From: Acidobacteriota bacterium
Lineage (GTDB): Bacteria; Acidobacteriota; Terriglobia; Bryobacterales; Bryobacteraceae
Assembly: GCA_021787555.1 (NCBI GenBank)
Contig: JAJYLS010000015.1
Coordinates: forward strand, 1 to 35,396
Reading direction: 5' to 3'
Length of the DNA: 35,396 nucleotides
Position 1 is the stretch's first letter. Each line of letters begins with the position of its first letter. The notes under the pieces were generated by a model. It searched no databases. It was not told where the DNA came from and worked only from the letters and a program-made list of their open reading frames with translations. Below, one piece after another: positions 1,966 through 25,589 of this stretch. A program made the position numbers and the translations under genes.

Positions 1966-1966
1966 G

Positions 1967-2809
1967 TCAAAAATGTAACCCCCTGTGATTTGTTAACCAC
2001 CCAACAATACTTTGGGGCATTATACACCCCGAGGTGCCGATGGATAAAGACTGCGAATTCCTTAGCGCGGAACCTAGCCACGGCAGCGGATAGCCGTCGG
2101 GATCTTTCCCGCGGACCCGGCGCCACCAGACCTGGAAGCTCGGCACGTTCACGGTGACGATGAACAGCTTGCGCAAATTACCCGGCGGGCAGCCGAGCGG
2201 GCGCACGCCGTGCCAGGAATGATCGGTGCGTTGGAACAGCAGGCTGCGGTTGCCGCAGGCATCGAGCGAGGCGGCGGTCGCGAGTTGATCGAACCCCGGC
2301 CCGGAATGGGAGCGGAGACGCCGGCCGTCGTCCAGGATGAGGATGTGGCCGCCCCAATCTTCGTGCCAATCGGCATCGGTATTGAAGTAGAAGATGTGGG
2401 TGCCGCGCTTGCGGACGGCGTCGCAGTGCGGCGAGACGCCGCAGCCTTCCCAGGCGTAATACCACTCCATGGTGGGAATGATGGTGGCATCCGGCGCAAG
2501 GCCCAGCATGCGGCGGACGAAAGCGGAGTAAGAGCCGTCCTGCAATTCCGCCAGAAACTCGCGCCAGGGCTGCGCCAGTTTCAGGTCCGGGCGGTAGTGC
2601 AGGATGGCGCGGTCATGATAACCCTGCCCGTGAGCGCGCTTGACGCCCACATGCTTTTTGAACATTCCAATATCGGGCAGGCTCTCGCGCAGGCATTGGA
2701 ACGCCTCGGACGTGAGCGTGTCCGGGATGTCGACCCACGGATAGGGCTGGCGGGTCTGAAACGTCTCGGTGGAAAGCGCATCGAGAGCAGCTTGGTTCAA
2801 ATACGCCAT
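1967..2809 (-). CDS. 2OG-Fe(II) oxygenase (prolyl-hydroxylase-like)
   Basis: 280 aa, cytosolic (no signal peptide). It carries the Fe(II) facial triad of the 2-oxoglutarate/Fe(II) dioxygenase fold: H128-x-D130 in SPHCDAVRKRGTHIFYFN and the distal H200 in DHSWHGV. R213 (NLRKLFIVTV) is placed to bind the 2OG carboxylate. The GHILILDDGRRL segment is the usual beta-strand between the two metal-binding parts. The substrate is unknown; relatives hydroxylate prolyl or asparaginyl residues or small molecules. TGA at 1967 is followed by a single base and then the ATG of the TonB receptor (TGACATG), so the two are probably co-transcribed and perhaps translationally coupled. A CATAAT at 2829-2834 (minus strand) could be its -10. 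Confidence 0.8.
   Translation of the reverse strand: MAYLNQAALDALSTETFQTRQPYPWVDIPDTLTSEAFQCLRESLPDIGMFKKHVGVKRAHGQGYHDRAILHYRPDLKLAQPWREFLAELQDGSYSAFVRRMLGLAPDATIIPTMEWYYAWEGCGVSPHCDAVRKRGTHIFYFNTDADWHEDWGGHILILDDGRRLRSHSGPGFDQLATAASLDACGNRSLLFQRTDHSWHGVRPLGCPPGNLRKLFIVTVNVPSFQVWWRRVRGKDPDGYPLPWLGSALRNSQSLSIGTSGCIMPQSIVGWLTNHRGLHF
2019..2024 (-). promoter_or_regulatory. Candidate -10 element (TATAAT) for the TonB receptor gene
   Basis: A perfect TATAAT on the minus strand lies 53 nt before the receptor ATG, inside the last codons of the oxygenase gene. No good -35 is visible at 17 nt. It could give the receptor its own transcript as well as read-through from upstream. Confidence 0.4.
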
Positions 2810-2847
2810 AATCGGGTCCGTTTCAGCGATTATGACATATGCAAATC

Positions 2848-2886
2848 ACCACAGAGGCACGGAGAGCGCGGAGGAAGCACAGAGAG
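2848..2886. repeat. Purine-rich ACAGAG-type dispersed intergenic repeat
   Basis: The stretch reads as repeated CACAGAGG/CACGGAG/GCGGAGG units upstream of the oxygenase gene. From general experience this 'accacagaggcac' sequence recurs in intergenic DNA of many bacteria. No coding potential is visible. Only one copy is present here, so its repeat status is from memory. Confidence 0.4.
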
Positions 2887-2924
2887 CTAGCACCCCGTGG
2901 TAGAAGTAAGTGCCCTGGAAAACC

Positions 2925-3036
2925 GGGTACAGGCACCGAAATTCCGCGGGGAGGCGTGTTCTGTTTCCAGCGGGTTAGCGGGGGTTAGCGGGGGGTTAGC
3001 GGGGGTTAGCGGCGCGGAATTTCGGAGCCAGTCCCC
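2925..3036. repeat. REP-like imperfect inverted repeat with G-rich tandem core (copy 1)
   Basis: Left arm 2925-2948 (GGGTACAGGCACCGAAATTC...) and right arm 3013-3036 are inverted repeats of 24 nt with three mismatches. The loop contains a tandem TTAGC/G-run array. A second element with the same arms (ACAGGCAC on the left, GAGCCAGTCCCC on the right) is at 10087-10145. It lies between the sugar-isomerase-like gene and the oxygenase gene. The arms resemble 'GGGGACAGGCAC' dispersed palindromes that I associate from memory with REP-type elements mobilised by RAYT transposases; no such transposase is in the window. Confidence 0.65.
2972..3012 (+). repeat. TTAGC-G(3-6) tandem array, potential G-quadruplex
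   Basis: Four G-runs (2972-2974, 2980-2984, 2990-2995, 3001-3005) are each separated by an identical TTAGC spacer, with a fifth short run GG at 3011. Four runs of three or more G with 5-nt loops satisfy the usual G-quadruplex rule on the + strand. It forms the loop of the REP-like element. Confidence 0.7.
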
Positions 3037-3070
3037 GCTTTTCCGACTCGACGAGTTTTGCCACTGGCTG

Positions 3071-4000
3071 CTAGGCTCTTGGCGCTTCCGGCACGAACTG
3101 GCGCACATAGGCGTGGGCGATGCGGAAGCCTTCTTTAAAAGACGTCGTGAAATCCGGGCCGTCGTAGTTGGGATAGTAGAACTGGTCTTCGTTTTCGATG
3201 TTCATGCCGCCTGTGTAGCCGGCGTCGGCGAGGGCGGTGAAGAAACCTCTCCAGTCGATCGAGCCGTTGCCGGGCAGGCGGAAGCGCCACCACTTCTTTT
3301 TGTCGAGCGGTTGAATGCCGCCGCGCCGCACCAGCGGCCAGAGGATCTCGGCGTCTTTCAGATGCACGTTGTAAATGTGAGGGCCGAACTCGCGCGCGGC
3401 TTCCACGGGATCGATCATCTGCCAAGCTAGGTGCGAAGGATCCATCTGGATGCCCACATACGGCGAATTGTTGAAAGCCGTCAGCAGCGCCTCGAAGCCC
3501 ACCGGGCTGGTGGCGATATTGAAGGGGTTGACCCAGGGCTCCCACAGGATGCGCACCTTGTGCTGTTGGCAGGCGGGGAAGTAGCGCGATTCGTAGAGCT
3601 TCACGATGGCCTGCACCTGCTGCTCGAGCGGTTGCCCCGGCACCGCGCCGGAAGAAGTCCCGATGAACGACACGCCCAGGCGCCCCGCCAGTTCGATGGT
3701 CTTGACGAACCGCTCCTGCACCTTCGGTTCGAAATGGTTTCCACCGGCGTTCAGCGCGGCGATGGTGAGGTGTCCGGCGTCGAGCGTGCGTTTGATCTCG
3801 GCGAGTTCCTCGCCGGTGGCATCGGGCGAGATGCCTCCGCCGATTTGCACGCAGGTGAATCCTTCGTTCGCGGCGAAGGCCATGTTGGCGGGCGAGTACT
3901 TGCAATAGATACCCAATTTCGGTTTCCAGTGAGCTGTGGCGGCGCGGACCGCCGGCAGCGCAAGAGCCGATTGAAGAATCGTGCGGCGAGTGGGGTTCAT
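3071..4000 (-). CDS. Secreted sugar phosphate isomerase/epimerase-like TIM barrel
   Basis: 309 aa. I chose ATG at 4000 because it begins a twin-arginine-type signal (NPTRRTILQSALALPAVRA); upstream in-frame starts only add low-quality sequence, and an AGGAG lies about 13 nt before it. The mature part is a xylose-isomerase-like (AP-endonuclease-2 superfamily) TIM barrel: KLGIYCKYSPANMAFAANEG at the first strand, LGVSFIGTSSG, VRILWEPWVNPFN, VGIQMDPSHLAWQ (acidic and histidine metal ligands), YNVHLKDAEI and the terminal MNIENEDQF. The family isomerises or epimerises sugars or inositols using a divalent metal; the substrate is unknown. It is divergent from a Tat sulfatase, consistent with a glycan-degradation locus. 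Confidence 0.8.
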   Translation of the reverse strand: MNPTRRTILQSALALPAVRAATAHWKPKLGIYCKYSPANMAFAANEGFTCVQIGGGISPDATGEELAEIKRTLDAGHLTIAALNAGGNHFEPKVQERFVKTIELAGRLGVSFIGTSSGAVPGQPLEQQVQAIVKLYESRYFPACQQHKVRILWEPWVNPFNIATSPVGFEALLTAFNNSPYVGIQMDPSHLAWQMIDPVEAAREFGPHIYNVHLKDAEILWPLVRRGGIQPLDKKKWWRFRLPGNGSIDWRGFFTALADAGYTGGMNIENEDQFYYPNYDGPDFTTSFKEGFRIAHAYVRQFVPEAPRA

Positions 4001-4072
4001 AGGATTTGGTGTGATCTCCTCTCCTGTGAGCTTATTCCAGCCGGCCCTGCTCGCGCTACACCGGTGGTGCGT

Positions 4073-4078
4073 TACTAT
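4073..4078 (+). promoter_or_regulatory. -10-like TACTAT, predicts leaderless sulfatase mRNA
   Basis: TACTAT ends 7 nt before the ATG at 4086, so transcription starting 6-8 nt after it would begin at the start codon. This decides the start in favour of 4086 over the ATG at 4077, which overlaps the hexamer. Confidence 0.5.
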
Positions 4079-4085
4079 GTTTGGC

Positions 4086-5465
4086 ATGTTCTCCCGAAGA
4101 GAGTTTTTGACATCGGCAGCGACGGCGGCGGCCACGGCGGGCGCAATGGCGCAGACGCGCGGCACGGGCCGAAAGCCGAATTTCATCATTTTCCTCTGCG
4201 ACGATCTGGGCTGCCACGATTGGGGGGCGCTGGGCGCCACCGATCTGAAGACGCCCAACATCGATGGCATCGCCACGTCCGGCGCGCGGTTCACGAACTG
4301 GTATTCAGCCGCGCCGGTCTGCGCGCCCTCGCGCGGTGCGCTGAATACGGGGCGCTATCCGCAGCGCAACGGCCTTACCGGAAACGGCCGGCCGCTGCCG
4401 CCGAGCGAGGAGACCACCGCCGCGCTGCTCAAGCCGGCGGGTTACGCCACGGGCGCTTTCGGGAAATGGCATATGGGCTCGACGGAGGACACGGTTCCCA
4501 ACGCGCACGGTTTCGACCAGTATTTCGGATTCCACTCCGGGTGCTTCGATTACTATTCGCACCGCTACTACTGGGGCGAGCGGGCCAATCCGCCGATCGT
4601 GAATTACCACGACCTGTGGCGCAACCGCACGGAGATTTTTGAAGACGGGCAATATTCGACCGAGCTGTTCGCGCGGGAGGCGACGCAGTTTATCCGCGAC
4701 AACCACACGCGGCCGTTCTTCGCCTACGTGCCGTTCAACGGAGTGCACTATCCCATGCACGCGCCCAAGAAATACGTAGACCGGTTCCTGAACCTGGAAC
4801 CCGAGCGGCGCACGTACGCGGCGATGCTTTCGGCGGTGGACGACGGCATCGGACAGGTGATGCGCACGCTACGCGAGTATCACTTGACCGACAACACGCT
4901 GGTGGTGGTGACCGGCGACAATGGCGCCACGCGCGAGACGCGGGCGGGATTGGACCAGAAACCGGCCACGGCGGGCGATAACCGGCCGTTCCGCGGGAAT
5001 AAGTTCAGCTTGTTCGACGGCGGCATGCACGTGCCGTTCTGCATGAGCTGGCCGGGGACGATTCCGAAGGGACAGGTGCTGCACCAGATGGGCTGCCATG
5101 TGGACCTGCTGCCGACGTTCCTCACGGCGGCGGGCGTGCCTCTGCCCACCGACCGCACGCTGGACGGCTTCGACGCGCTGCCCATGGCGGTTTCGGGTGC
5201 GCCATCCAAGCACGACGCCATCTTCTGGGAATCGGCCGGGCAGCTTGCCGTGCGGCGCGGGAAATGGAAGCTGGTGAAGAACGGCAAGACGTTCGATGGC
5301 ACGCCGGAAGGCAACCGGCCGCTCCCGGGCGACGACGCGATCTTCCTTTCGAACCTGGAGGAAGATCCCGGCGAATCGAAGAACCTGCGGCACGAGAATG
5401 CGGCGCTGACGGATGAACTGCTGACGCTGGCGGAGAAGTGGACGGAGGACGTCAAGAAGCCGTGA
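4086..5465 (+). CDS. Tat-exported sulfatase (arylsulfatase A family)
   Basis: 459 aa. The N-terminus SRREFLTSAATAAATAGAMA is a classical Tat signal. The mature protein opens with NFIIFLCDDLG (calcium-binding acidic pair D39-D40). It has the formylglycine motif C79-A-P-S-R followed by GALNTGRYPQRNG, so it needs oxidation of C79 by a formylglycine-generating enzyme or anSME. Further family blocks are FGKWHMG, VVTGDNGATRETR (metal-binding D-N) and GGMHVPFCMSWPG. It should hydrolyse sulfate esters, probably on sulfated sugars, outside the cytoplasm. The first ATG at 4077 lies within the putative -10 hexamer, so 4086 is preferred. It is convergent with the MFS gene, only 10 nt away. Confidence 0.9.
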   Translation: MFSRREFLTSAATAAATAGAMAQTRGTGRKPNFIIFLCDDLGCHDWGALGATDLKTPNIDGIATSGARFTNWYSAAPVCAPSRGALNTGRYPQRNGLTGNGRPLPPSEETTAALLKPAGYATGAFGKWHMGSTEDTVPNAHGFDQYFGFHSGCFDYYSHRYYWGERANPPIVNYHDLWRNRTEIFEDGQYSTELFAREATQFIRDNHTRPFFAYVPFNGVHYPMHAPKKYVDRFLNLEPERRTYAAMLSAVDDGIGQVMRTLREYHLTDNTLVVVTGDNGATRETRAGLDQKPATAGDNRPFRGNKFSLFDGGMHVPFCMSWPGTIPKGQVLHQMGCHVDLLPTFLTAAGVPLPTDRTLDGFDALPMAVSGAPSKHDAIFWESAGQLAVRRGKWKLVKNGKTFDGTPEGNRPLPGDDAIFLSNLEEDPGESKNLRHENAALTDELLTLAEKWTEDVKKP

Positions 5466-12922: not shown

Positions 12923-14311
12923 TCAGGGCATGGTGGTCTTCACGGCGCTGAAGTCAAGCTTGGTTGAAGACCGGATGGCGAGCGGCGGCAGGGGCTTCTG
13001 CCGGAAGTTGAAACAATCCAGCATGTCGTGAGCGTCGCGGTCGCGGGCGGTGAGCGGCTTGATGTGGAACTTCACTTCCATGAACTTCAGCGGCGAGGTG
13101 AAATCGAAATGCGTGTGGTCTATAAAGCCCGGCCTGGCGTACGCGGAGATGACCAGCGCGGGCACGCGAGGGCCAAAACCGTATTTATCTACCTGGCTCG
13201 GCGGCACGTGGTCGTAGAAGCCGCCGAAATCGTCCCAAGTCACGATGATCATGGTGTCCTTCCAGTAGTACGGGCTATCCATGATGGCGTTGATCAAGTG
13301 GGTGACGTGCCACATGCCCTGGGCCGAATCGGCCGGCGGGTGCTCGCTGTCCTCGCCGGTCGGCACAATCCAGGCCACCTGGGGCAACTTGTGATCGCGG
13401 ACGTCGGTGTAGAAGTTTCCCAGCGGTACCAGGTGGTCCATGAGCGCCGGGTTGTTTTGAAAAGCCACGAAGCCGGGCAGGGGGTTCCAGAGGCTGTGCT
13501 GGTGGGGATTGGTTTTCTGATCGTAGTAAGCCCAGGTGACGCCAGAATCCTGAAGCAACTCGGCCATGGTTTTAAATGTGTAGACCCCGGGTTCCCCGGC
13601 AACGCCGGGCCGGGGGTTGTTGACCATGCCGCCGGACTGCGCTGCCACGGTGTAGAGGTGATTGGGCTCGCTGGGTCCCATCAGGGACGAGAAGAAATTG
13701 TCGCAGAGCGTGAAGTGGCGCGCATAAGCCCAATAGTTGGGGATTTCGTGCCAATCGTAGTAGGACATGGTGTTCAGCACCCAATCGGGGGGCGGGCCTT
13801 CGGGCGCTTTGGCCGGCCGCTTGCCGCTGAACTGGCCGGCGCGGGTGGCGGCGCCTTCGGCCGCTTGCATGCGGCGCTGGCGCGGCCCCAGCCGGTCACG
13901 GTTCACGGGCTTGGGATGGATCAGGTTGGGGTCGGGTTCGGGCACATCCTCATTCCAGTAATAGAGCAACGCTTCCGGCCATTCGGCCCACAGGAAACCA
14001 TCCATTTTGCCGCCGTTGTAAGCGGCGCGGGCCGCCTGGTAACTGTGGCTCAGGTCATGCGGGATGGCGGTGCTGTGCAGGTGGAACGGCGCCACCTGGG
14101 GAGAACCGCCGGGTTTGGACGGCACCTTGGTTCCGAGGGGGATACCGTTGGCGCCGGGATAGGTGCCGAAGTAATGGTCGAAAGTGATGTTCTCCTGGAC
14201 GATGTAAATGATGTGTTGGATGGGGATGGGTTGGTGTGCCGGCTGCGGGGCCGCGAAGAGCAGCGCGGGCAGGCACATTCCAGAAGCGATTTTCCATATT
14301 GGGGACTGCAT
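12923..14311 (-). CDS. Secreted phosphoesterase (phospholipase C / acid phosphatase AcpA superfamily)
   Basis: 462 aa. ATG 14311 is chosen because AAGGAG lies about 9 nt upstream and the product starts with a Sec signal ([20 protein letters not shown]). The alkaline-phosphatase-fold motif is [17 protein letters not shown] near the mature N-terminus (family ENxxFDxxFG). Further motifs are [27 protein letters not shown] (metal-binding D and H) and [13 protein letters not shown] at the C-terminus. Relatives are phosphatidylcholine-type phospholipases C and acid phosphatases that hydrolyse phosphate mono- or diesters outside the cytoplasm. Whether this one acts on phospholipids cannot be told. 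Confidence 0.88.
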
Positions 14312-14465
14312 CTCTAAAATCTCCTTACCAGAGTTTACTCCAGCGCGGGTTTCGAGCGCGACCAGCTCCTTTCGCATGCGGGGGGAAGAACTCCAGGTGC
14401 TGGGGCGACTTGACAGCAGCCAGCTCCGGCTTCGACTCGAGCGTGGGTGGGGGTGTAACTGAAGA

Positions 14466-14530
14466 AGTCAGGAGTCAGAAGTCAGAATGCACGGCGCGCG
14501 GAGCCATTCTGATCCTGCCTTCTGACTCCT
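14466..14530. repeat. Heptamer repeat AGTCAGR x3 forming an inverted repeat
   Basis: AGTCAGG-AGTCAGA-AGTCAGA occupies 14466-14486. The left arm 14470-14488 pairs with 14506-14530: a 12-nt perfect block AGGAGTCAGAAG plus TCAGAAT, the right arm carrying a 6-nt insertion. It lies in the 217-nt gap just after the rhaM stop, so it could act as a transcription stop or be a dispersed element. The gap holds nothing else I recognise. Confidence 0.6.
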
Positions 14531-14846
14531 ACTCCAAATAAAAAACCTCTCTCATCATGGCGAACCGCTCCCCGCTCTCCTTATCCGGTACCGGCTCGAA
14601 CAGCGGCGCCATGGCCCGCTGCCACGCCTGGTTCACCGGATCCCGGTCCAGTTGCTCCCAGGCGTGCTCGAAATCGTCCACCCGCAGGCACAGCACCAGG
14701 TCCTGGCCACGGCGGAAAATCGAGTACTCCGAAATCCCCACGGCCCTCAGTTTCTCCAGCAACTCGGGCCAAACGGCCTTATGAGCGCGCTCGTACTCCT
14801 CGATCTTGTCCGCGCGGATGCGCAGCTTGAATGCGTAGCGGGGCAT
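14529..14846 (-). CDS. rhaM: L-rhamnose mutarotase
   Basis: 105 aa, the usual family length. Conserved blocks are AFKLRIRADKIEEYERAHKAVWPELLEKLR (read here as two adjoining motifs, with H22 as the likely catalytic histidine and WPEL conserved), the ISEYSIFRRG strand, and the terminal REVFYLE, which matches the E. coli RhaM ending EVFYLP. It interconverts alpha and beta anomers of L-rhamnose in the cytosol. GGAG 8 nt before the ATG serves as ribosome site. No other rhamnose catabolic gene is in the window. It is divergent from the glutaminase-like gene. Confidence 0.9.
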   Translation of the reverse strand: MPRYAFKLRIRADKIEEYERAHKAVWPELLEKLRAVGISEYSIFRRGQDLVLCLRVDDFEHAWEQLDRDPVNQAWQRAMAPLFEPVPDKESGERFAMMREVFYLE

Positions 14847-14900
14847 TGTGGTCGCTCCATATCAAGAATACAGCTTTCGGCGTCCTCCCCCGCATCGCGT

Positions 14901-14906
14901 TACTAT
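14901..14906 (+). promoter_or_regulatory. -10-like TACTAT, predicts leaderless glutaminase-like mRNA
   Basis: TACTAT ends 6 nt before ATG 14913. The surrounding GCGTTACTAT is identical to the stretch before the sulfatase start (4069-4078), 10.8 kb away. Confidence 0.5.
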
Positions 14907-14912
14907 ACCGGA

Positions 14913-17024
14913 ATGCGCCTTTGCGTTGGACTTTTTGTCGCGATCGCCGCCGTCGCGCAGCCGCTCGCTCCCTTCCGTCCCCCCGCCGTCCCCCTGGTCG
15001 CCCACGATCCTTATTTCAGCATCTGGTCGATGGCCGACCGCCTCACCGGCGACGTCACGCGCCACTGGACCGGCAAGCCCAACACCCTCACCGGCCTCGT
15101 CCGCATCGATGGCCAAACCTACCGCGTCATGGGCCACGGAGCCCGCCGCGTCCCGCTACCCGCGGCCGTGCTCGAACAGACGCGCCTCGAAGTCCTCCCC
15201 ACCCGCACCATCTATGAATTCGCCGGCCACGGCGTGAAAATCAGCCTGACCTTCTTCACCCCCGCCCTCCCCGACGATCTCGATGTCCTCTCCCGCCCCC
15301 TCACCTATCTCGAATGGACCGCCGCTTCCACCGATGGCGCGCCGCACGCCGTGTCCATCTACTTCGACGCCGGCGCCGACCTCGTGGTCAACACGCCCGA
15401 TGAGCCCGTCGAGTGGGCGCGCTTCGATCTCGACGGCCATCCCGTCCTCCGCATGGGTTCCCGCGAGCAACCCATCCTTGCCAAGCGCGGAGACGACCTG
15501 CGCATCGATTGGGGCTACCTCTACCTCGCACCCGATAAATCGGAAGGCGTTGCGCTGGCCGCCGGCAGCGGCAACGACGTGCGCGCCGCGTTCGAATCCT
15601 CCGGCCGCATGCCCGATTCCGACGACCTCTCGGAAGGCAGCGCGCGCGAAGTCCTCGCCGCGGCCCTCGATCTTGGCCGCGTGGGCGCCACGCCCGTCTC
15701 GCGCTACCTCATGCTGGCCTACGACGATCTCTACTCCATCGAATTCTTCCAGCGCCGCGAGCGCGCCTGGTGGCGCCGCAACGGCGCCGAAGCCGGCGAC
15801 CTGCTCCGCGACGCCCGCCGCGATCACGACTCGCTCCTCGCCCGCGCCCGCCGCTTCGATGATGAACTCGTCTCCGACCTCCGCCGCGCCGGCGGCGAAG
15901 AGTACGCCCGCCTCGCCACCCTCGCCTACCGCCAGACCCTCGCCGCCCACAAGCTTGCCGCCGATGCCGATGGCACCGCCATGTATTTCCCCAAAGAGAA
16001 TTTCTCCAACGGCTGCATCTCCACGGTGGATGTGATTTATCCCAGCGCGCCCTTCACCCTCCTCTTCAATCCCAGGCTCATCGAGGCGCAGCTTGCGCCG
16101 GTCATGGAATACGCCGCCATGCCCCGCTGGCATTGGCCCTTCGCCCCGCATGACCTCGGCACCTACCCGCAGGCCAACGGCCAAGTCTACGGCGGCGGCG
16201 AGCGCACCGAGACCAACCAGATGCCGGTCGAAGAAAGCGGCAACATGCTCATCCTCACCGCCGCCCTGGCGCACATCGAAGGCAATGCCGCCTTTGCCGA
16301 AAAGTATTGGCCGCAGCTCACCAAGTGGGCCGAGTACCTGAAGGCCAAGGGCCTGGACCCCGAAAACCAGCTCTCCACCGACGATTTCGCCGGCCACCTC
16401 GCGCACAATGCCAATCTCTCCATCAAGGCCATCCTGGCGCTCGGCGCCTACGGCGTCCTCTGCGATATGACCGGCCGAAAAGAGCAGGGCGCGAGCTATC
16501 GCAAAACCGCCGAGGAGTTCGCCGCCAAGTGGCAGCAGCTTGCCGCCGAAGGCGACCACTACCGTCTGGCTTTCGACCAGCCGGGCACCTGGAGCCAGAA
16601 ATACAACCTGGTTTGGGACAAGGTGCTCGGCCTGCACCTCTTCCCGCCGGAAGTGGCGCGCCGCGAAACGGCGTTTTATACGACGCACCAGAACAAGTAC
16701 GGCCTGCCGCTCGACAATCGCAAGACCTACACCAAGCTCGATTGGATTCTCTGGACCGCCACCCTGGCCAACGACCGCGCCGAATTCGAAAAGCTGGTCG
16801 GGCCCGCCTACCGCTTCGCCGCCGAATCGCCCAGCCGCGTGCCCCTGACGGATTGGTACGACACCGTCACCGCGCAGCAGCAGCACTTCCAGGCGCGCTC
16901 GGTGGTCGGCGGCCTCTTTATGAAGATGCTGGCCGATCCGGCCATCTGGAAGAAGTATGCCGGCCGCGCGCTTTCGGCACCGCAGCCGGTACCAGCCGCG
17001 CGTAATGCGGCAGCGGCCCGGTGA
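14913..17024 (+). CDS. Secreted glutaminase A-like protein (DUF5127/DUF4965/DUF1793 architecture)
   Basis: 703 aa. Sec signal MRLCVGLFVAIAAVAQ. The order matches glutaminase-A-type proteins: an N-terminal beta-sandwich (PPAVPLVAHDPYFSIWSMAD to about residue 330) followed by an alpha/alpha six-barrel (LATLAYRQTLAAHKLA, FPKENFSNGCISTVDVIYP, PHDLGTYPQANGQVYGGG, QMPVEESGNMLILTAALAH, DDFAGHLAHNANLSIKAI, YNLVWDKVLGLHLFP, DWYDTVTAQQQHFQARSVVGG). Family members were named from fungal extracellular glutaminase, but the fold is that of glycosidases, so the real substrate is open. The start is chosen at the signal peptide with TACTAT 6 nt upstream. Its 3' end overlaps the convergent phosphofructokinase gene by 107 nt. 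Confidence 0.85.
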   Translation: MRLCVGLFVAIAAVAQPLAPFRPPAVPLVAHDPYFSIWSMADRLTGDVTRHWTGKPNTLTGLVRIDGQTYRVMGHGARRVPLPAAVLEQTRLEVLPTRTIYEFAGHGVKISLTFFTPALPDDLDVLSRPLTYLEWTAASTDGAPHAVSIYFDAGADLVVNTPDEPVEWARFDLDGHPVLRMGSREQPILAKRGDDLRIDWGYLYLAPDKSEGVALAAGSGNDVRAAFESSGRMPDSDDLSEGSAREVLAAALDLGRVGATPVSRYLMLAYDDLYSIEFFQRRERAWWRRNGAEAGDLLRDARRDHDSLLARARRFDDELVSDLRRAGGEEYARLATLAYRQTLAAHKLAADADGTAMYFPKENFSNGCISTVDVIYPSAPFTLLFNPRLIEAQLAPVMEYAAMPRWHWPFAPHDLGTYPQANGQVYGGGERTETNQMPVEESGNMLILTAALAHIEGNAAFAEKYWPQLTKWAEYLKAKGLDPENQLSTDDFAGHLAHNANLSIKAILALGAYGVLCDMTGRKEQGASYRKTAEEFAAKWQQLAAEGDHYRLAFDQPGTWSQKYNLVWDKVLGLHLFPPEVARRETAFYTTHQNKYGLPLDNRKTYTKLDWILWTATLANDRAEFEKLVGPAYRFAAESPSRVPLTDWYDTVTAQQQHFQARSVVGGLFMKMLADPAIWKKYAGRALSAPQPVPAARNAAAAR

Positions 17025-18162
17025 GCGGCAGCAGGTAATCCGTAAACCCGCGCTCGACGTCGTTGCCACCCGCGCTCCGCCACTCCGCCGGAAACGGCCG
17101 CTCGTGGAGCGCCACGCGCTCGAACGGCGCCAGGCCGGTCGACGACCGGTACACGGGCCCCGGCTCGCGCACGATCGTCACCATCTGCCCCGATACTCCT
17201 TCGCACGCAGCGCGCACCGCCGCCGCCCCGCACATCTTCGACTCTTCCCAATCGAGCCTCGGCCGCTGCCAGCCGCTCACCCGCGCCAGCAGTCCCGGCT
17301 TCTCCGCGCGCGCTTTCACCTTCAGCCGCTCCGCCACGGTCGTCGCCAGCCGGTGCCCCAGGTTCGCCGCCAGCGTCCCACGCGACGCCACCATCCCGTC
17401 CGCGCCGAATCGCCCGCCGTGCTCGTCCTTCTGCCCTTCGCAGATCGCTACCAGGCAGCGCCCCAGCCGCCGGTGGACCGCCGCGATGTCGTCCAGCAAT
17501 TTTTCCAGCGGCAGCGGCCAATCGGGCAGGTAGATCAAATGCGGTGCGTCGTCCGGATCCTTCCGCGCCAGCACCGTCGCGGCCACAATCCATCCCGTGT
17601 TTCGCCCCAGCGTTTCGACGAATTCCACCTGCCCCGGCAGCGCGCGGTTGTCCTCGCCGATGTCCCGCACCGCCGCCGCAAAAAATCGCGCCGTGGTCGG
17701 ATAGCCGGGCGTGTGGTCGGTCTCGGCCAGGTCGTTGTCGATGGTTTTCGGAATCCCCACCACCTGCAACTCGTAGCCCGACTCCAGCGCCATTTTCTCG
17801 ATCGCCCGGGCCGTGCCCATGGAGCCGTTGCCGCCGGTATAGAAGAAGTAGCGCACGTCGTGCGCGCGCATCGCCGCGAGCGCGCGCTCCAGTTCCGCCG
17901 GTCCCGCCGCCAGCCGCGACGTTCCCAGCGCCGACGCGATGCCTTCGGCGGCGGCTTCGAGGACGGTCTGCGGCTGCGCGAACAGGTCGACCAGTTCATC
18001 CCGGAGGATGCCGTCCAGCCCGAACGCCGCGCCGTAGAGCGCGCCAATCTCCTTGTGCCGCCGCGCCTCCTCCACCACTCCCAGCAGGCTGGCATTCAGC
18101 ACCGCCGTGGGTCCGCCGCTGTGCGCCACCAGGGACACACCGCCTGATTTCCCCATGCTCAT
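16918..18162 (-). CDS. 6-phosphofructokinase, PPi-type-like
   Basis: 414 aa. ATG 18162 overlaps the stop of the upstream permease gene (ATGA), which supports this start. Motifs are SGGPTAVLNASLLGVV (phosphoryl donor loop), GGNGSMGTA at 110-118, PKTIDNDLAETDHTPGYPTTA at 138 onward (catalytic TIDND) and ETLGRNTGWIVAATVLA. The PKTIDND pattern and length suit the pyrophosphate-type or long group-III PFKs. At the GGDGS/GGDD position the sequence is GGNGS, with no acidic residue, which is odd because this acid helps hold Mg-phosphoryl donor. After PLPHYARL, where homologs usually end, an extra tail of about 28 residues is encoded antisense to the glutaminase-like gene. Confidence 0.85.
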   Translation of the reverse strand: MSMGKSGGVSLVAHSGGPTAVLNASLLGVVEEARRHKEIGALYGAAFGLDGILRDELVDLFAQPQTVLEAAAEGIASALGTSRLAAGPAELERALAAMRAHDVRYFFYTGGNGSMGTARAIEKMALESGYELQVVGIPKTIDNDLAETDHTPGYPTTARFFAAAVRDIGEDNRALPGQVEFVETLGRNTGWIVAATVLARKDPDDAPHLIYLPDWPLPLEKLLDDIAAVHRRLGRCLVAICEGQKDEHGGRFGADGMVASRGTLAANLGHRLATTVAERLKVKARAEKPGLLARVSGWQRPRLDWEESKMCGAAAVRAACEGVSGQMVTIVREPGPVYRSSTGLAPFERVALHERPFPAEWRSAGGNDVERGFTDYLLPLTGPLPHYARLVPAAVPKARGRHTSSRWPDRPASS

Positions 18163-18980
18163 TTCATCTTCAGAAACAGGGATACCGCCATCCCCAGCCC
18201 GATCAGAATCACGATCCGCCGCACCGCCGTCCGGCCCACGCGCCGCGCCGCGCCCGCGCCGCCGTATCCTCCGGCAATCGCCCCGATTGCCATGATCAGC
18301 ACGTCCGGCCAGTACACCATCCCCGCCCAGATGAAGTACACCGCCGCAATCCCGTTCACGCATCCGGCGAAAATCACCTTCAGGCTGTTCATCTCGTGGA
18401 TGTCTTTCAGCCCCAGGATGCTCAGCGCCGCCAGCATCAGGATGCCAATGCCTGCGCCGAAATAGCCGCCGTAGAGTCCCACCGCGAGTTGAAACAGCAG
18501 GGCGCCCGCCAGCCACCGGCCCGCGCTCCGCGTGCCGGCCTTCCCCGTGCCGAGGCGGCGCTGCACCGGTTCCTGCACGATGAATAGCAGCGTCGCGAAC
18601 AGGATCAGGAACGGCACCAGGCGGTCGAAAATGGCCGTCGGCGTCCAGCGCAACAGCACGGCTCCGGCCAGTCCGCCCACCAGGCTCGGCACGATCAGCC
18701 AGCGGAAGCGCGGCTCGGCCCTGCGCAGTTCCCGCCGGTAGCCCCAGGTGCTGCCCACCGTCCCCGGCCAAATGGCTACCGTGCTGGTGGCGTTCGCCGT
18801 CACGCCGCCAAGCCCCAGCCAGATGAGCGTCGGAAACGAAACCAGCGTACCACCGCCGGCGACCGAATTGATCGCGCCCGCCAGGAACGCCGCGGCAAAC
18901 GCCACGGCGCCGCGCCAGAGGTTCAGCGGGGCCTGTGCGCCGAGCACCGCGGCCGGGTAGAGATCCAGTAAATTGTGCAA
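18159..18980 (-). CDS. TauE/SafE (TSUP) family membrane permease
   Basis: 273 aa, about eight hydrophobic segments. The duplicated TSUP signature is present: GAINSVAGGGTLVSFPTLIWLG with ANATSTVAIWPGTVGS in the first half, and GLYGGYFGAGIGILMLAALS with MNSLKVIFAGCVNG in the second. The family exports or moves sulfite, sulfonates or other small organosulfur anions, and the assignment to a substrate is not possible. The start is a TTG at 18980, supported by TATGCT 6 nt upstream and by lack of a better in-frame ATG. It overlaps the phosphofructokinase start by 4 nt (ATGA), so the two are co-translated. Confidence 0.85.
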   Translation of the reverse strand: MHNLLDLYPAAVLGAQAPLNLWRGAVAFAAAFLAGAINSVAGGGTLVSFPTLIWLGLGGVTANATSTVAIWPGTVGSTWGYRRELRRAEPRFRWLIVPSLVGGLAGAVLLRWTPTAIFDRLVPFLILFATLLFIVQEPVQRRLGTGKAGTRSAGRWLAGALLFQLAVGLYGGYFGAGIGILMLAALSILGLKDIHEMNSLKVIFAGCVNGIAAVYFIWAGMVYWPDVLIMAIGAIAGGYGGAGAARRVGRTAVRRIVILIGLGMAVSLFLKMK

Positions 18981-18986
18981 CTTTCG

Positions 18987-18992
18987 AGCATA
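18987..18992 (-). promoter_or_regulatory. -10-like TATGCT before the TauE/SafE gene
   Basis: TATGCT on the minus strand ends 6 nt before TTG 18980. A possible -35 TTGGGA is 19 nt upstream. Confidence 0.35.
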
Positions 18993-19085
18993 ACGCGATT
19001 CCCGCTCGGAGTCCCAATCGCACCGTCGGATGGTCTATTTTTGCACTTTAGCCTCGGTTTATGGCAATTCAACCCGGCCTCCCCG

Positions 19086-19091
19086 TATACT
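19086..19091 (+). promoter_or_regulatory. -10-like TATACT before the Tes-like radical SAM gene
   Basis: TATACT ends 9 nt before ATG 19101, predicting a leader of about 2-3 nt. No clear -35 or Shine-Dalgarno site is visible. Confidence 0.4.
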
Positions 19092-19100
19092 CGTCGCATC

Positions 19101-20729
19101 ATGGCCGAATTCCAGGTAATACAGCCTGAAACTACCTATACAGGCTCCCCTATCCCCGTCGTCCCCAAAGGGTTGCCCAAGACCACGCGCTCGATGTGCC
19201 CCGAATGCAGCCAGCTCATCGATGCCCTCATTCGCGAGGACGCCGGCAAGGTCGTGATGGAAAAGCGCTGCCCCGAGCACGGCGAGTTTCGCGACATCGT
19301 CTATTCCGACGCCCGCCTGTACCTCAAGATGGAGGAGTGGACCTTCGGCGATAACCGCGGCCTGGAAAACCCCGCGGTCGCCAACGCCGCCCGCTGCCCC
19401 GACGATTGCGGCCTCTGCAACCTCCACACCAGCCACACCGGCCTCGCCAACGTCGATCTCACCAACCGCTGCAATCTCACCTGCCCGGTCTGCTTTGCCA
19501 ACGCCAACGCCGCCGGCTATGTCTACGAGCCGGATTTCGAGACCGTCCGCAAGATGCTCCAGGCGCTGCGCGACGAGCGCCCCGTGGCCTGCCGCATCGT
19601 GCAGTTCTCCGGCGGCGAGCCGACCATCTACCCGCGCTTCCTCGACGTCCTGCGCATGTCCCGCGAACTGGGCTTTTCCCACATCCAGGCGGCCACCAAC
19701 GGCCTCAAGTTCACCGACCTCGAATTCGCCGAGCAGTGCAAGGAAGCCGGCCTGCACACCCTCTACCTCCAGTTCGACGGCGTCTCCGACGAGGTCTACC
19801 GCCGCACCCGCGGCGAGCGCCTCTGGGAGCAGAAGCTGAAGTGCATCGAGAACGTCAAGCGCGCCGGCCTGAAAATCGTCTTCGTCCCCACCATCGTCAA
19901 GGGCCTGAACGACCACGAGATCGGCGACATCCTCCGCATCGCGCTCGAATATATCGAGTGCACCAGCGGCATCAGCTTCCAGCCGGTGGCCTTCACCGGC
20001 CGCATTGCGCGCCACGAGCTCGAAGCCAAGCGCTTCACCCTCTCCGATTTCGCCCACGCCGTCCAGCAGCAGACCGGCATCGCCGACCCGTACGAGGATT
20101 GGTTCCCGCTCTCCTGCGTCACGCCGTTCTCCAAGCTCCTCAGCGCCCTGCGCGGCGACGAGACCACCATGCTGAGCTGTCATCCGCACTGCTCGCTCGG
20201 CACCTACCTGTTCGTCGATCAGAACCGCCACGCCGTGCCGGTGACCCGTTTCATCGAGGTCGGTCCGATGCTCCGCGAGATGGATATCCTGGCGCGCAAA
20301 GCCGGCAAGCGCCGCGTCCAGTTCTTCACCAAGATTCAGGCGTGGAATAATCTCCGGAAATTTTTCCACGAGGAGAAAGCGCCCGCGGGCCTGACCTTTG
20401 ATAAATTCCTGCAAACCCTCCAGGGCATGACCGACAAACGCTACGGCCGCGGCGAGCGCGAGCAGGATGGCTTCACCTACCGCACCCTCATGGTGGCCGG
20501 CATGCACTTCATGGATTCGTATAACTACGACGTGGAGCGCGTGAAGCGCTGCGTGATCCACTACGCCGCGCCCAACGGCCGCATCTACCCTTTCTGTGCC
20601 TACAACTCCGGCCCGGTGTTCCGCGAGCGCATCGAGAAGGAATTCTCGATTCCCATGGACAACCGCGAGGAGTATCACCGCCTCGTCTGCGCCGCCAGAA
20701 AGGACCGCGGCTGCGTGACCGTGGGATGA
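19101..20729 (+). CDS. Radical SAM protein of the tetraether lipid synthase (Tes)-like family
   Basis: 542 aa, cytosolic. Cysteine sites in order: C33-x2-C36 with C57-x2-H60-G (rubredoxin-like N-terminal site), C99-x3-C103-x2-C106 (CPDDCGLCNLH), radical SAM cluster C124-x3-C128-x2-C131 (TNRCNLTCPVCFA), GGEPT at 171-175, then C339, C360-x2-x-C364 (CHPHCSLGTYLFV), and C-terminal C484, C499 (YPFCAYN), C530 and C538. Blocks ANVDLTNRCNL, YVYEPDF, QFSGGEPT, SHIQAATNGLK, YLQFDGV, FQPVAFTGRI and CHPHC are, from memory, shared with archaeal Tes (MJ0619), which joins two lipid tails by C-C coupling and has three 4Fe-4S clusters plus a rubredoxin-type iron. I infer a role in membrane-spanning lipid synthesis; another radical SAM reaction is possible. 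A TATACT precedes the start. Confidence 0.85.
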   Translation: MAEFQVIQPETTYTGSPIPVVPKGLPKTTRSMCPECSQLIDALIREDAGKVVMEKRCPEHGEFRDIVYSDARLYLKMEEWTFGDNRGLENPAVANAARCPDDCGLCNLHTSHTGLANVDLTNRCNLTCPVCFANANAAGYVYEPDFETVRKMLQALRDERPVACRIVQFSGGEPTIYPRFLDVLRMSRELGFSHIQAATNGLKFTDLEFAEQCKEAGLHTLYLQFDGVSDEVYRRTRGERLWEQKLKCIENVKRAGLKIVFVPTIVKGLNDHEIGDILRIALEYIECTSGISFQPVAFTGRIARHELEAKRFTLSDFAHAVQQQTGIADPYEDWFPLSCVTPFSKLLSALRGDETTMLSCHPHCSLGTYLFVDQNRHAVPVTRFIEVGPMLREMDILARKAGKRRVQFFTKIQAWNNLRKFFHEEKAPAGLTFDKFLQTLQGMTDKRYGRGEREQDGFTYRTLMVAGMHFMDSYNYDVERVKRCVIHYAAPNGRIYPFCAYNSGPVFRERIEKEFSIPMDNREEYHRLVCAARKDRGCVTVG

Positions 20730-20748
20730 GCGCGCCGCTGGCCTCGGT

Positions 20749-20754
20749 ACAATC
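20749..20754 (+). promoter_or_regulatory. -10-like TACAAT before hemW
   Basis: TACAAT ends 6 nt before the GTG at 20761, predicting a leaderless mRNA separate from the upstream radical SAM gene. Confidence 0.45.
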
Positions 20755-20760
20755 GTAGAG

Positions 20761-21840
20761 GTGGCCGGCGTTTATCTTTCCTATCCCTTCTGCGCGCAGA
20801 AGTGCACGTACTGCAACTTCGCCTCGGGCGTTTTTCCGCGCGCGCTGGAAGCCCGGTACCTCGACGCCTTGGCCGCGGAAATCCGCGTGCACCGCTGGGA
20901 ATGGAGGCCGGAGACCGTTTATCTCGGCGGCGGCACGCCGGGAAACATGGACCTGGATGCGCTCCGCTCGATCCTCGCTTTGATTCCCGGCGCGCCCTGG
21001 CTGGAAGCCACCATCGAAGCCGCGCCCGGCGCCATCGCGGCGGAGAAGGCGCGGGCGTGGGCCGCCGCGGGAATCAACCGCGTGAGCCTCGGCGTGCAGT
21101 CCTTCGTCGAAGCCGAGATTCGCCGCACCGGCCGCCGGCACACCGCCGAAACCGTCGCGCGCGATGTTGCGGCGCTGCGCGCAGCCGGCATCGCCAACTT
21201 CAATATCGACCTGATCGCCGGGCTTTCCGCGCAGACCGAAGCAAGCTGGCGCGAATCGCTCGATTGGATCGAGCGCCTAGCGCCGCCGCACGTTTCCGTC
21301 TACATGCTCGAAGTGGACGAGGACAGCCGCCTCGGCCGCGAGATGCTGCTCGGCGGCGTGCGCTACGGCGCGGCCGATACGCCCGGCGACGACCGCATCG
21401 CCGCGTTCTACGAGTTCGCCGTAGAGCGTCTCACGGCCATGGGCATCGCGCGCTACGAAATTTCCAACTTCGCGCGGCCGGGATTCGAATCGCACCACAA
21501 TCTGAAATATTGGCGGATCGAGCCGTACGCCGGCTTCGGCGCCGACGCCCATTCGTTCGATGGCACCGCGCGCCGGGCCAATCCGGAAACGGTCGAAGAG
21601 TACCTGCAAAACGCCCCGCCGCCGGCCGCCAGCCCCACCGGTCCCGACGAGCGCTTCTTCGTCGGTCTGCGCCTGATGGAGGGCATCCGGCCGGAGCCGG
21701 ACGAATGGCGGCGCTTCGCCGCGCCCATCCGGCGGTTCGTGGATGCCGGGCTGCTCGAATCCGCCGGCGGCGTGCTCAAGCTGACTTCGCGCGGCATTCT
21801 CTTATCCAACGAAGTTTTCCAGGAGTTCCTCCTCTCATGA
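20761..21840 (+). CDS. hemW: HemW-like radical SAM protein (heme chaperone family)
   Basis: 359 aa with a GTG start at 20761, chosen because [11 protein letters not shown] is the normal start of the family and TACAAT lies 6 nt before it. Radical SAM cluster C11-x3-C15-x2-C18 ([10 protein letters not shown]), then [34 protein letters not shown] and the C-terminal HemW domain ending in [13 protein letters not shown]. The family was once called oxygen-independent coproporphyrinogen oxidase (HemN-like), but the fourth cysteine of the true HemN CxxxCxxCxC is absent here (CNF), pointing to heme trafficking rather than decarboxylation. Its TGA overlaps the threonine aldolase ATG. Confidence 0.88.
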
Positions 21841-22886
21841 TCGATCTGCGCAGCGATACCGTTACCAAGCCAACGCCGGCCATGCGGCGCGCGATGGCGG
21901 AAGCCGAAGTCGGAGATGACGTCTACGGTGAAGATCCCACGGTCAACCGGTTGGAAACCCGCGCGGCGGAAATCGCCGGCAAGGAAGCCGCTCTGTTCGT
22001 GCCAACTGGAACGATGGGCAACACTATTGCCGTCAAACTGCTCACCACGCACGGCCAGGAAGTGATCTGCGACGCTCGCGCGCACGTGACGGACTACGAA
22101 CTCGCCATGATGGCGTGGTTTTCCGGCTGCGTGCCGCGCACCGTTCCCACCGCCGACGGCATCCTCTCCTGGGAGCAGGTGGCGCGGCTGGCCAAGCCGG
22201 TGAACCCCTACTCCGCGCCCACCGGAATGATCGAGATTGAAAACACCCACAACATGTGCGGCGGTACGGTGTATCCAATCGAAACCATCCGCGAGATCTG
22301 CGATGGCGCGCACGAGCGCGGGCTCAAGGTCCACATGGATGGCGCGCGCATCTTCAACGCCGCGGCGGCCAGCGGCCTGACAGTCGCCGAGATCGCCGCG
22401 CCGGCCGATACGGTGATGTTCTGCCTCTCGAAGGCCCTGGGCGCGCCGGTGGGCTCGATGCTCGCCGGACCGGCGGAACTCATCGCCAAGGGGCGCCTCT
22501 ATCGCAAGCGCCTCGGCGGCGGCATGCGGCAGGCCGGCGTGCTCGCGGCGGCGGGGTTGGTGGCGATCGAGGAAACTCCGCTCAAGCTCGTGGAGGATCA
22601 CCGCAACGCTAGATTTCTGGCTGAAGGCCTCGCGCGCATTCCGGGCATCCGCATCGATCCGAAAAAAGTGGTCACCAACATCGTGATCTTCGACGCTGCC
22701 GGGACCGGCATTCCCACCGCCGAGATCAGCGCGCGGCTCAAGCAGAGCGGTGTGCTGCTCAACCCGATCAACGACCGCGAGATGCGCGCCGTCACGCATT
22801 ACGACGTGGACCGCGCCGGCTGCGCGCTCGCTCTCGATGCACTGGCGGAGGCGGTGCCTGCCCGCGCCGCGGCTTCACAGTTGTAG
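21837..22886 (+). CDS. ltaE: Low-specificity L-threonine aldolase
   Basis: 349 aa. [20 protein letters not shown] is the typical family start, and the ATG overlaps the hemW stop (ATGA), so translation is coupled. PLP enzyme of fold type [10 protein letters not shown] (phosphate binding), [11 protein letters not shown] with D168 contacting the PLP ring nitrogen, and [13 protein letters not shown] with K199 as the Schiff-base lysine. [16 protein letters not shown] is a strong family block. It cleaves L-threonine or L-allo-threonine to glycine and acetaldehyde. It is one of three threonine-related enzymes in the window, with tdh and thrC. Confidence 0.94.
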
Positions 22887-22940
22887 CCAAACTTATACAT
22901 CCTGGCGTGGCCTTGTGCCTTGTTAGACTAGCGTATATCC

Positions 22941-25589
22941 ATGAGGAATTTCATTCTGCTGCTGGCGGCGAGCGGCGCCGCGCTGGCGCAGCAGTTTACC
23001 ATTTCGACCGTCGCGGGAGGCGCGCCTCCCCCGACCCCGGTGGTGGCCACCAGCGCGTCGATCGGCCAGCCCGCGCGCGTCGCCGTGGATAGCGCCGGCA
23101 ACGTTTATTTCAGCAGCGCGAACACGGTCTTCAAGATGGACGGCAGCGGCGTGCTGACGGTGGTCGCGGGGAACTCGCGCGCCGGGTTCTCCGGCGACGG
23201 CGGCCCGGCGGTCAGCGCGCAGTTGAATGCGCCGCGCGGCATCGCTATCGACAAGGCCGGCGACATCTTCATCGCCGATTCCGGCAACAACCGCGTGCGC
23301 GAAGTGACGCCCGACGGAATCATCAACACCTTCGCCGGCAGCGGCCTGCCCAATCCCGGCGGCCTCGGCTCCTATGGCGACGGCGGCCCGGCGGTCAACG
23401 CGCTGCTGCGCCTGCCGGCCGGCGTGGCACTGGACAACTCCGGCGACCTCTTCATCGCCGATACCGGCGACAACCTCATCCGCAAAGTCACGCCCGATGG
23501 CGTGATCAACAGCGTGGCCGGCGATGGCTATCCCAGCTATTACGGCGACGGCGGACCGGCCACCCAGGCCGAACTATACAATCCGCAGGACGTGGCGGTG
23601 GATTCCTCCGGCAACATCTACATCGCGGATACCACCAACGCTTACATCCGCAAGGTGACCACCGATGGCGCGATCAATGCCATTGCCGGCAGCGGCAGCA
23701 TCGGCTCCACCGGCGACGGCGGCCCGGCCACCAAGGCCTCACTGAACGCGCCCATGGCGCTGGCGCTCGATTCGTCCGGCGATATTTACTTCGTGGAAAA
23801 CGGCGACAGCAAGATCCGCGAGATTGACACCAAGGGCAACATCAACACCGTCGCCGGGACCGGCACCGCCGGTTTCGCCGGCGACGGCGGCAAGGCCACT
23901 TCCGCGCAATTCAACTCGCCGACCGGCATCGCGCTCGATTCCTCCGGCAACATGTATATAGCGGATTCGCTGAATGAACGCATCCGCAAGATCGCCGGCT
24001 CGAACGTTTCTACGGTCGCGGGCAACGGCATCCTGAGCTACTCGGGCGACGGCGGTCCGGCCACGCGCGCGCAGCTCAACGCGCCGCAGGGCGTGGCGGT
24101 GGATCCCTCCGGCGACCTTTATATTTCCGACACGGCGAACAACGTGGTGCGGATGGTCGGCAAGGACGGCAACATCAGCACCGTGGTAAGCAGCAGCGCC
24201 AAGCTGAACGGGCCGCAGGGCCTCGCCGCCGACAGTGCCGGCAACCTTTATATCGCCGATTCGCTGAACGGGCGCGTGCTTCAACTGACGCCCGGCGGAT
24301 CGCTGAACACGGTGGCCGGCAATTCGCAATTGATCCTGCCGACCGCCGTGGCGGTGGACAAGGCCGGCGATGTCTACATCGCCGATTTCAGCGGCAACCG
24401 GATTTACAAAGTGGCCCCGGGCGGCGGCGTCTCGACCGTGGCCGGCACCGGCGGCATGGGCTACGGCGGCGATGGCGGTCCCGCGGCCAACGCGCAACTG
24501 ACCACGCCGGCGGCCGTGGCGGTGGACGCGTCGGGCCGGCTCTACATCGCCGACACCGGCAACAACGCCGTGCGGGTGGTGGATTCCGCCGGCCAGATCA
24601 GCACCCTGGCGCAGGTCGACTCGCCGGAGGCCATCGCGGTGGATGCCAAGAGCAACGTGTACGTGGCCGACGGCAGCGCGCAGGTGTTCCAGGTTTATCC
24701 TTCCGGGCTGGTGGTGGCGATCGCCGGCACGGGCGCGCGCGGATATTCGGGCGATGGCGGCGCGGCCCTGAGCGCACTGCTGAGCGCCCCCTCGGCGCTG
24801 GCGGTGGATTCGAGCGGCCGGATCTACGTTGCCGATACGGCCAACAACGCCGTGCGGCTGCTCCAGTTCAGCGGATACGGCCTGAGCGTGAGCTCGGTGA
24901 CGAGTGCCGCCAGCAATGCCACGGGGCCGATCGCGCCGGGCGAAGCGGTGGTGCTGTACGGCTCCGGACTCGGACCTTCCCAGCTTGCCACCTTCCAACT
25001 CGATTCGTCCGGCCTGGTGCCCGCGGCGCTGGCGGGGACTTCGGTCTACTTCAACGGCGCGGCGGGGCCGATGCTCTACACCTCCAATGGCCAGGTCGCG
25101 GCGATGGTTCCATATTCGATCACCGGCAACAGCGCGCAGGTGATGGTGAAGTATCAAGGGCAAGTGACCGGCACGATCACGGTGCCGGTGGCCGCCGCCG
25201 CGCCGGCGCTGTTCACACTGAACTCGTCGGGGTCGGGGGAGGCTTCGGCCATCAACCAGGATGGCACGCTGAACGGGCCGTCGAATCCGGCCAACGCCGG
25301 CACGGTGGTTTCGCTCTACGGCACGGGCTTCGGCCAGACCACGCCTCCGGGAGTGGACGGGCAGCCCAATGCCGTGCCGCTGCCGCTGCCGCTGTTCGAC
25401 GTCAAGGCCACGGTCGGCGGCCAGCCGGCCACGGTGCAATTTGCCGGCGGCGCGCCGGGGATCGTGGCGGGCGTCATGCAGGTGAACATCGTGATCCCCA
25501 ACGGGGTCGCGGCGGGCAATGCGCCGGTGGTGGTGGCGGTCGGCGGCGCAAACACGCAATCGGGAGTCACAATCGCGGTGCAACCATGA
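22941..25589 (+). CDS. Secreted NHL-repeat protein with Solibacter-type C-terminal domain
   Basis: 882 aa. Sec signal MRNFILLLAASGAALAQ. Residues about 20-640 are roughly ten NHL repeats, seen as recurring GDGGPA..A.LN.P.GVAVD.SGNLYIADT.NN.IRKV...G.I.TVAG units of 50-60 residues, which should fold as one or two beta-propellers. From about 650 there is a second domain (APGEAVVLYGSGLGP, TSVYFNGAAGPMLYTSNGQ, APALFTLNSSGSGEASAINQ, VSLYGTGFGQTTPPGVDGQ) that I recognise as the TIGR03437 type, typical of Solibacter-group secreted proteins. It is likely cell-surface or extracellular, with a binding role; no catalytic site is visible. It has a possible -10 TAGACT at 22924-22929. Its stop overlaps the next gene's ATG. 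Confidence 0.9.
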   Translation: MRNFILLLAASGAALAQQFTISTVAGGAPPPTPVVATSASIGQPARVAVDSAGNVYFSSANTVFKMDGSGVLTVVAGNSRAGFSGDGGPAVSAQLNAPRGIAIDKAGDIFIADSGNNRVREVTPDGIINTFAGSGLPNPGGLGSYGDGGPAVNALLRLPAGVALDNSGDLFIADTGDNLIRKVTPDGVINSVAGDGYPSYYGDGGPATQAELYNPQDVAVDSSGNIYIADTTNAYIRKVTTDGAINAIAGSGSIGSTGDGGPATKASLNAPMALALDSSGDIYFVENGDSKIREIDTKGNINTVAGTGTAGFAGDGGKATSAQFNSPTGIALDSSGNMYIADSLNERIRKIAGSNVSTVAGNGILSYSGDGGPATRAQLNAPQGVAVDPSGDLYISDTANNVVRMVGKDGNISTVVSSSAKLNGPQGLAADSAGNLYIADSLNGRVLQLTPGGSLNTVAGNSQLILPTAVAVDKAGDVYIADFSGNRIYKVAPGGGVSTVAGTGGMGYGGDGGPAANAQLTTPAAVAVDASGRLYIADTGNNAVRVVDSAGQISTLAQVDSPEAIAVDAKSNVYVADGSAQVFQVYPSGLVVAIAGTGARGYSGDGGAALSALLSAPSALAVDSSGRIYVADTANNAVRLLQFSGYGLSVSSVTSAASNATGPIAPGEAVVLYGSGLGPSQLATFQLDSSGLVPAALAGTSVYFNGAAGPMLYTSNGQVAAMVPYSITGNSAQVMVKYQGQVTGTITVPVAAAAPALFTLNSSGSGEASAINQDGTLNGPSNPANAGTVVSLYGTGFGQTTPPGVDGQPNAVPLPLPLFDVKATVGGQPATVQFAGGAPGIVAGVMQVNIVIPNGVAAGNAPVVVAVGGANTQSGVTIAVQP

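Follow-up and report, generated by a model that had tools for sequence, protein, structure and literature searches.

A short Tes-type radical SAM protein from a Bryobacteraceae genome and its PlsA/Ger-like companion, with a predicted role in branched tetraether lipids

Introduction

Branched GDGTs (brGDGTs) are widely used for the reconstruction of past temperature and pH, and their producers as well as the enzymes that make them are poorly known. The occurrence of Tes in Acidobacteria, together with a proposed role in brGDGT formation, has already been published (PMC8941075, PMC10087280, PMC11868695). No bacterial Tes has confirmed activity according to PMC11868695, and some Tes carriers, such as Halobacteria, have no known GDGTs (PMC8941075). 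In this study, we asked whether a 542-aa radical SAM protein encoded in an acidobacterial genome of 5.9 Mb (516 contigs) belongs to this family, and which role it is likely to play in its host. The window, that is, the whole stretch of DNA analysed, comprises 35,396 nucleotides. As a family member the tes gene comes as no surprise, and the locus owes its value to the split into subfamilies and to the partner described below. Our main reference is MJ0619 (GDGT-MAS, Tes) from Methanocaldococcus jannaschii (structures 7tol and 7tom), the ligands, labile Met and coupling mechanism of which were taken from PMC9433317.

The tes gene and its metal sites

The gene is a single open frame from ATG to stop, and the ATG is supported because relatives align from residue 1. 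The gene and its metal sites are as follows.

19101-20729, + strand: tes, short four-metal-site type, radical SAM protein of 542 aa (NF045702, 7tol match, tree and fold)
19197-19280, + strand: rubredoxin-type site C33, C36, C57, H60 (CPEC...CPEHG), equivalent to MJ0619 C9, C12, C33, H36; PF23545
19395-19427, + strand: N-terminal auxiliary 4Fe-4S site C99, C103, C106 (CPDDCGLC) plus H109, equivalent to MJ0619 C73, C77, C80, H83
19470-19493, + strand: radical SAM cluster CX3CX2C, C124, C128, C131 (CNLTCPVC), equivalent to MJ0619 C98, C102, C105; PF04055
20190-20192, + strand: C364 (in CHPHC), putative C-terminal auxiliary cluster ligand, equivalent to MJ0619 C338; invariant
20502-20504, + strand: M468 (GMHFMD), labile Met ligand by its described role (PMC9433317), equivalent to MJ0619 M439
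20550-20552, + strand: C484 (RCVIHYA), putative C-terminal auxiliary cluster ligand, equivalent to MJ0619 C455; invariant
20595-20597, + strand: C499 (YPFCAYN), putative C-terminal auxiliary cluster ligand, equivalent to MJ0619 C470; invariant

The first-pass annotation had described the product as Tes-like and noted a resemblance to archaeal MJ0619, and both statements were borne out. The NCBIfam equivalog for Tes, NF045702, scored 574.6 bits over residues 29-518 (cut-off 450, E 1.5e-172), well over every other radical SAM family among the NCBIfam profiles; the TrsS family reached 338 bits, under its cut-off of 490. The top solved structure by sequence was MJ0619 (7tol, E 9.7e-138), and with these two E values the match is not a chance one. 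The best matches thus did not fall in another radical SAM group, the result that had been named as refuting. No NF045702 match at E<=1e-20 was obtained from the control genome of Thermotoga maritima.

The joint alignment shows that the short Tes has the full set of ligands described for MJ0619 (PMC9433317), and the SAM-binding Gly corresponds to G172. From the alignment we infer that C364, C484 and C499 hold the C-terminal cluster. The cysteine sites listed earlier for the protein all align with MJ0619 ligands, with the correction that the CHPHC motif contributes only C364. The AlphaFold model (pLDDT 86.8, pTM 0.88) superposed on 7tol over 483 residues with an rmsd of 2.0 A and Z 46.1, the next-best folds being MoaA structures with Z 20.6. 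The fold around the two long hydrophobic lipid pockets of MJ0619 superposes with the model at the level of the overall alignment. Membership of the Tes family is supported by the curated HMM, the metal ligands, the tree and the fold.

The role under which the family was first named, pterin methyltransferase, survives in Pfam as the HMPTM zinc ribbon. Structure and assays of MJ0619 did not support that role (PMC9433317) and the current NCBI equivalog is Tes, so we regard such an activity of the 542-aa protein as highly improbable.

Surroundings of the gene in the window

Two neighbours flank tes within the window.

18159-18980, - strand: TauE/TSUP-family transporter, divergent from tes across a gap of 120 nt (PF01925)
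20761-21840, + strand: hemW-like radical SAM gene (TIGR00539, 213.5 bits, cut-off 205.4)

The gene had been described as standing alone with its own promoter, and both points turned out weaker. No sigma-70-like promoter was matched upstream of tes, and Acidobacteria may use other promoters; the same-strand hemW-like gene starts only 31 nt after the tes stop and is possibly co-transcribed with it, so that tes does not clearly stand by itself. This tight spacing is not conserved, since five relatives with the same locus keep hemW 0.8-2.9 kb from tes, and hemW was rejected as an operon partner on that basis. About ten close relatives have the divergent TauE/TSUP-tes arrangement as well, with differing genes downstream. 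No recurrent lipid gene was seen near short tes in Bryobacteraceae neighbourhoods, and no Rfam element was found in the window. The GC skew goes negative at 14001-24000 of the window, where the genes change their strand mix.

Short and long Tes types

A second Tes-family homologue, P0002, was found in the window's genome on contig C19. It has 699 aa and an NF045702 score of 311 bits, below the Tes cut-off. The long type (~700 aa) and the short type are alike in the residues of the rubredoxin, radical SAM and C-terminal cluster sites, whereas they are only about 34% identical and the cysteine triad of the N-terminal cluster is absent in 95 of the 95 long-type proteins, all three other sites being retained. 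The long type likely couples tails as well. It is a core gene of the Bryobacteraceae-type family, with matches at E<=1e-40 in 219 of 237 family genomes, a few of them through the short type alone. The short type occurs in 43 of the 237, or 45 when two fragments are included. Several near-complete genomes (G037, G065, G095 and G017) carry the short type without the long, so the short type can stand alone. Long and short tes lie in tandem, 159-170 nt apart, at L050 and L188 (G056:C84), and within about 2-3.5 kb at L058 (about 2.2 kb) and L186; these loci come from different genera.

Among named sequences, the close relatives share 84-86% identity with the short type and come from Bryobacterales, Solibacteraceae and Candidatus Solibacter MAGs, in keeping with the Solibacter-type genome that the first-pass annotation had recognized. 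All the named short-type carriers that a peptide-pattern search revealed in Bryobacteraceae are MAGs.

A tree had also been proposed as a check, and we built one of 86 rows by a quick method with a limited archaeal sample. The sample of archaeal and other-phylum Tes came from the same peptide-pattern search, which leans towards relatives of the 542-aa protein and recovers 21 of 30 known short-type proteins of the family. In this tree the long type forms one group (support 100), the 542-aa protein groups with all the short-type bacterial and all the sampled archaeal Tes (support 100), the archaeal Tes form one group (support 99), and the Bryobacteraceae short types sit with other acidobacterial short types. 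Rooting on the long type nests the archaeal Tes within the bacterial ones, and no direction of transfer is drawn from this. The long type is not alone in lacking the triad. The N-terminal cluster cysteines are also missing from ten archaeal Tes of Methanomassiliicoccales type (L099-L108) and from one of DHVE2 (L109), so this cluster may be dispensable for coupling.

Co-occurrence with a PlsA/Ger-like system

Partners were searched for by the PlsA/Ger signature domain PF09989, with T. maritima as the control genome, which also matches; a 'modified plsA' of this species has been proposed for ether bonds (PMC8788747). Two classes, A and B, were assigned by hit length. Type A has ~1035 aa, with two BcrAD_BadFG domains and DUF2229, and is followed by an overlapping partner ORF of ~435 aa; type B has ~1200 aa, is about 25% identical to type A and is more widespread. 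From its family, the type A system likely makes ether bonds (ester-to-ether).

Type A is present in 45 of the 237 family genomes, namely in 41 of the 45 with short Tes (fragments counted) versus 4 of the 192 others (Fisher 1e-36, ignoring shared ancestry). At genus level it was recorded in 28 of 29 short-Tes genera versus 2 of 47 others (p 2e-17, likewise ignoring shared ancestry). The odds ratio with short Tes was 305 for type A and 3.9 for type B, the latter a weak link. Strictly independent pairs on the long-type tree numbered five, of which three to four pointed in the same direction and on average 0.1 in the opposite one; after this correction the link between type A and short Tes is suggestive and not significant, the pairs being too few.

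In the window's genome, contig C475 holds type A together with the partner ORF, at about 519-4786, and in the Bryobacteraceae genomes examined short tes and type A lie on different contigs. Outside this family, 13 further short-Tes genomes of Acidobacteriota, from families f2, f7, f8, f17, f19, f28, f35 and f37, contain full-length type A proteins (51-65% identity). Among the short-type groups, type A is absent from the deep f4 group and several others.

Physical linkage of tes and PlsA-like genes

Adjacency of tes and type A was observed in four lineages, which belong to Acidobacteriota, Gemmatimonadota and Planctomycetota. In the acidobacterial family f28 (L270) tes, A and partner follow each other on one strand; a Gemmatimonadales MAG (L074) has tes, one NrnA-like gene, A and partner; a Planctomycetales MAG (L094) has A, partner, tes and a radical SAM/SPASM protein; and in a Sedimentisphaerales MAG (L095) a fused A/partner gene precedes tes.

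The long type has a comparable neighbour. At L182 (G010:C22, 2272-9540) a type B PlsA-like gene, a partner and long tes lie in this order on the same strand, and type B is found about 1-7 kb from long tes in G047, G080 and G114. The order in G010 raises the possibility that the two Tes subtypes work with separate PlsA-like partners.

Predicted function and alternative explanations

The 542-aa protein is a bacterial Tes, and we consider it probable that, as a pair with type A, it makes ether-linked, tail-coupled membrane-spanning lipids of the brGDGT type. Judged by its homology to MJ0619, the enzyme would use its radical SAM cluster to generate a 5'-deoxyadenosyl radical, and this radical would abstract hydrogen from the end carbon of an alkyl tail held in a hydrophobic pocket. 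The tail carbon would then be parked on one of the sulfurs in the C-terminal 4Fe-4S cluster, and a second abstraction, on another tail, would allow the two saturated ends to join into a membrane-spanning chain. The expected substrates are iso-branched (iso-C15-like) glycerolipids. Their ester bonds would be converted to ether bonds by the PlsA/Ger-like type A system, either ahead of the coupling step or following it, and we would expect the reaction to yield iso-diabolic-type chains, as part of branched GDGTs or of mixed ether/ester relatives.

Compared with MJ0619, the short Tes shares the full-length fold, the four metal sites and the HMM equivalog, at about 42% identity. It differs in its bacterial host, in chains that are presumably iso-branched and fatty-acid derived instead of phytanyl, in having no GGR neighbour, and in an N-terminal tail of about 24 aa. 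The replacement of Ser271 of MJ0619, a ribose contact, by Ala297 counts against the proposed function. The bacterial Mss, compared here by description only, has been published as coupling fatty-acid tails and has a Tes-like modelled architecture (PMC13274423).

Two lines of evidence strengthen the lipid role: tes is linked in genomes to an enzyme of the ester-to-ether type, and brGDGTs have been published for Solibacter usitatus. According to PMC10087280, the lipids of this species include brGDGTs, trialkyl tetraethers and iso-C15 diethers, whereas iso-diabolic acid was not detected; its genome encodes two Tes homologues along with PlsAR homologues, and a diether route has been proposed for it. 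It belongs to the same order of bacteria as the window's host, which likewise has two Tes homologues and, in type A, a PlsA/Ger-like system, and the combination of type A and short Tes would fit that route. The earlier suggestion that the gene is a concrete brGDGT candidate is thus a supported reading, and it had overlooked the long Tes-family protein of the same genome and the publications on acidobacterial Tes.

It could be argued that the short Tes does not act on membrane glycerolipids but couples or alkylates some different hydrophobic compound, for instance a quinone, a hopanoid or a wax, by the same radical chemistry. A shift of substrate is conceivable because MJ0619 holds lipid head groups loosely (PMC9433317). 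The close match to this lipid-specific enzyme extends over the full length, however, tes is linked in operons to an ester-to-ether type enzyme, and brGDGTs are known from S. usitatus (PMC10087280), all of which makes this explanation very unlikely.

Another explanation would see the long paralogue as the tail coupler of the family and the short type as an isoenzyme for the same ester lipids that is kept in reserve or used under particular conditions, the PlsA/Ger-like link reflecting shared ancestry only. The core distribution of the long type, its three retained metal sites, the type B genes beside or near long tes, and the close placement of both tes genes in L050, G056 and L058 are in line with it. 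Against it stand the near-complete genomes that carry the short type without the long, the far weaker association of type B than type A with the short type, and the Tes-A operons in phyla beyond Acidobacteriota. On balance, we find this second explanation unlikely, and glycerolipid tail coupling together with type A is retained as the preferred reading.

Extending this reading, we tentatively put forward, as a possibility and with some reserve, that Acidobacteria have two parallel tail couplers. The core three-site long type would yield ester-linked iso-diabolic-type lipids, and the optional four-site Tes with the two-subunit PlsA/Ger-like enzyme would yield true branched tetraethers; short Tes plus type A would then serve as a genomic marker for the makers of brGDGTs in three or more bacterial phyla. 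Neither the split into a four-site short and a three-site long type nor the pairing of short Tes with type A was found in the literature searched, the scope of which did not extend to supplements, the Mss paper or subscription journals, and an earlier report of either is possible. A pair that separates likely tetraether makers from makers of iso-diabolic acid only would let metagenomes reveal brGDGT sources, and short Tes with type A constitutes a concrete gene pair for testing the origin of branched tetraethers.

Other radical SAM neighbours

Directly after tes, a radical SAM/SPASM protein of 500-551 aa, NirJ/AhbD-like and with an N-terminal extension, was observed in an acidobacterium (L064:7664-9319) and in the planctomycete (L094:7654-9159). 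From its SPASM make-up and the company it keeps, this protein may be a candidate Gms-type (tetraether bridging) enzyme. No orthologue at >=50% identity was detected in the window's genome; at the same threshold, orthologues occur in 12 family genomes, and short Tes is present in 11 of these.
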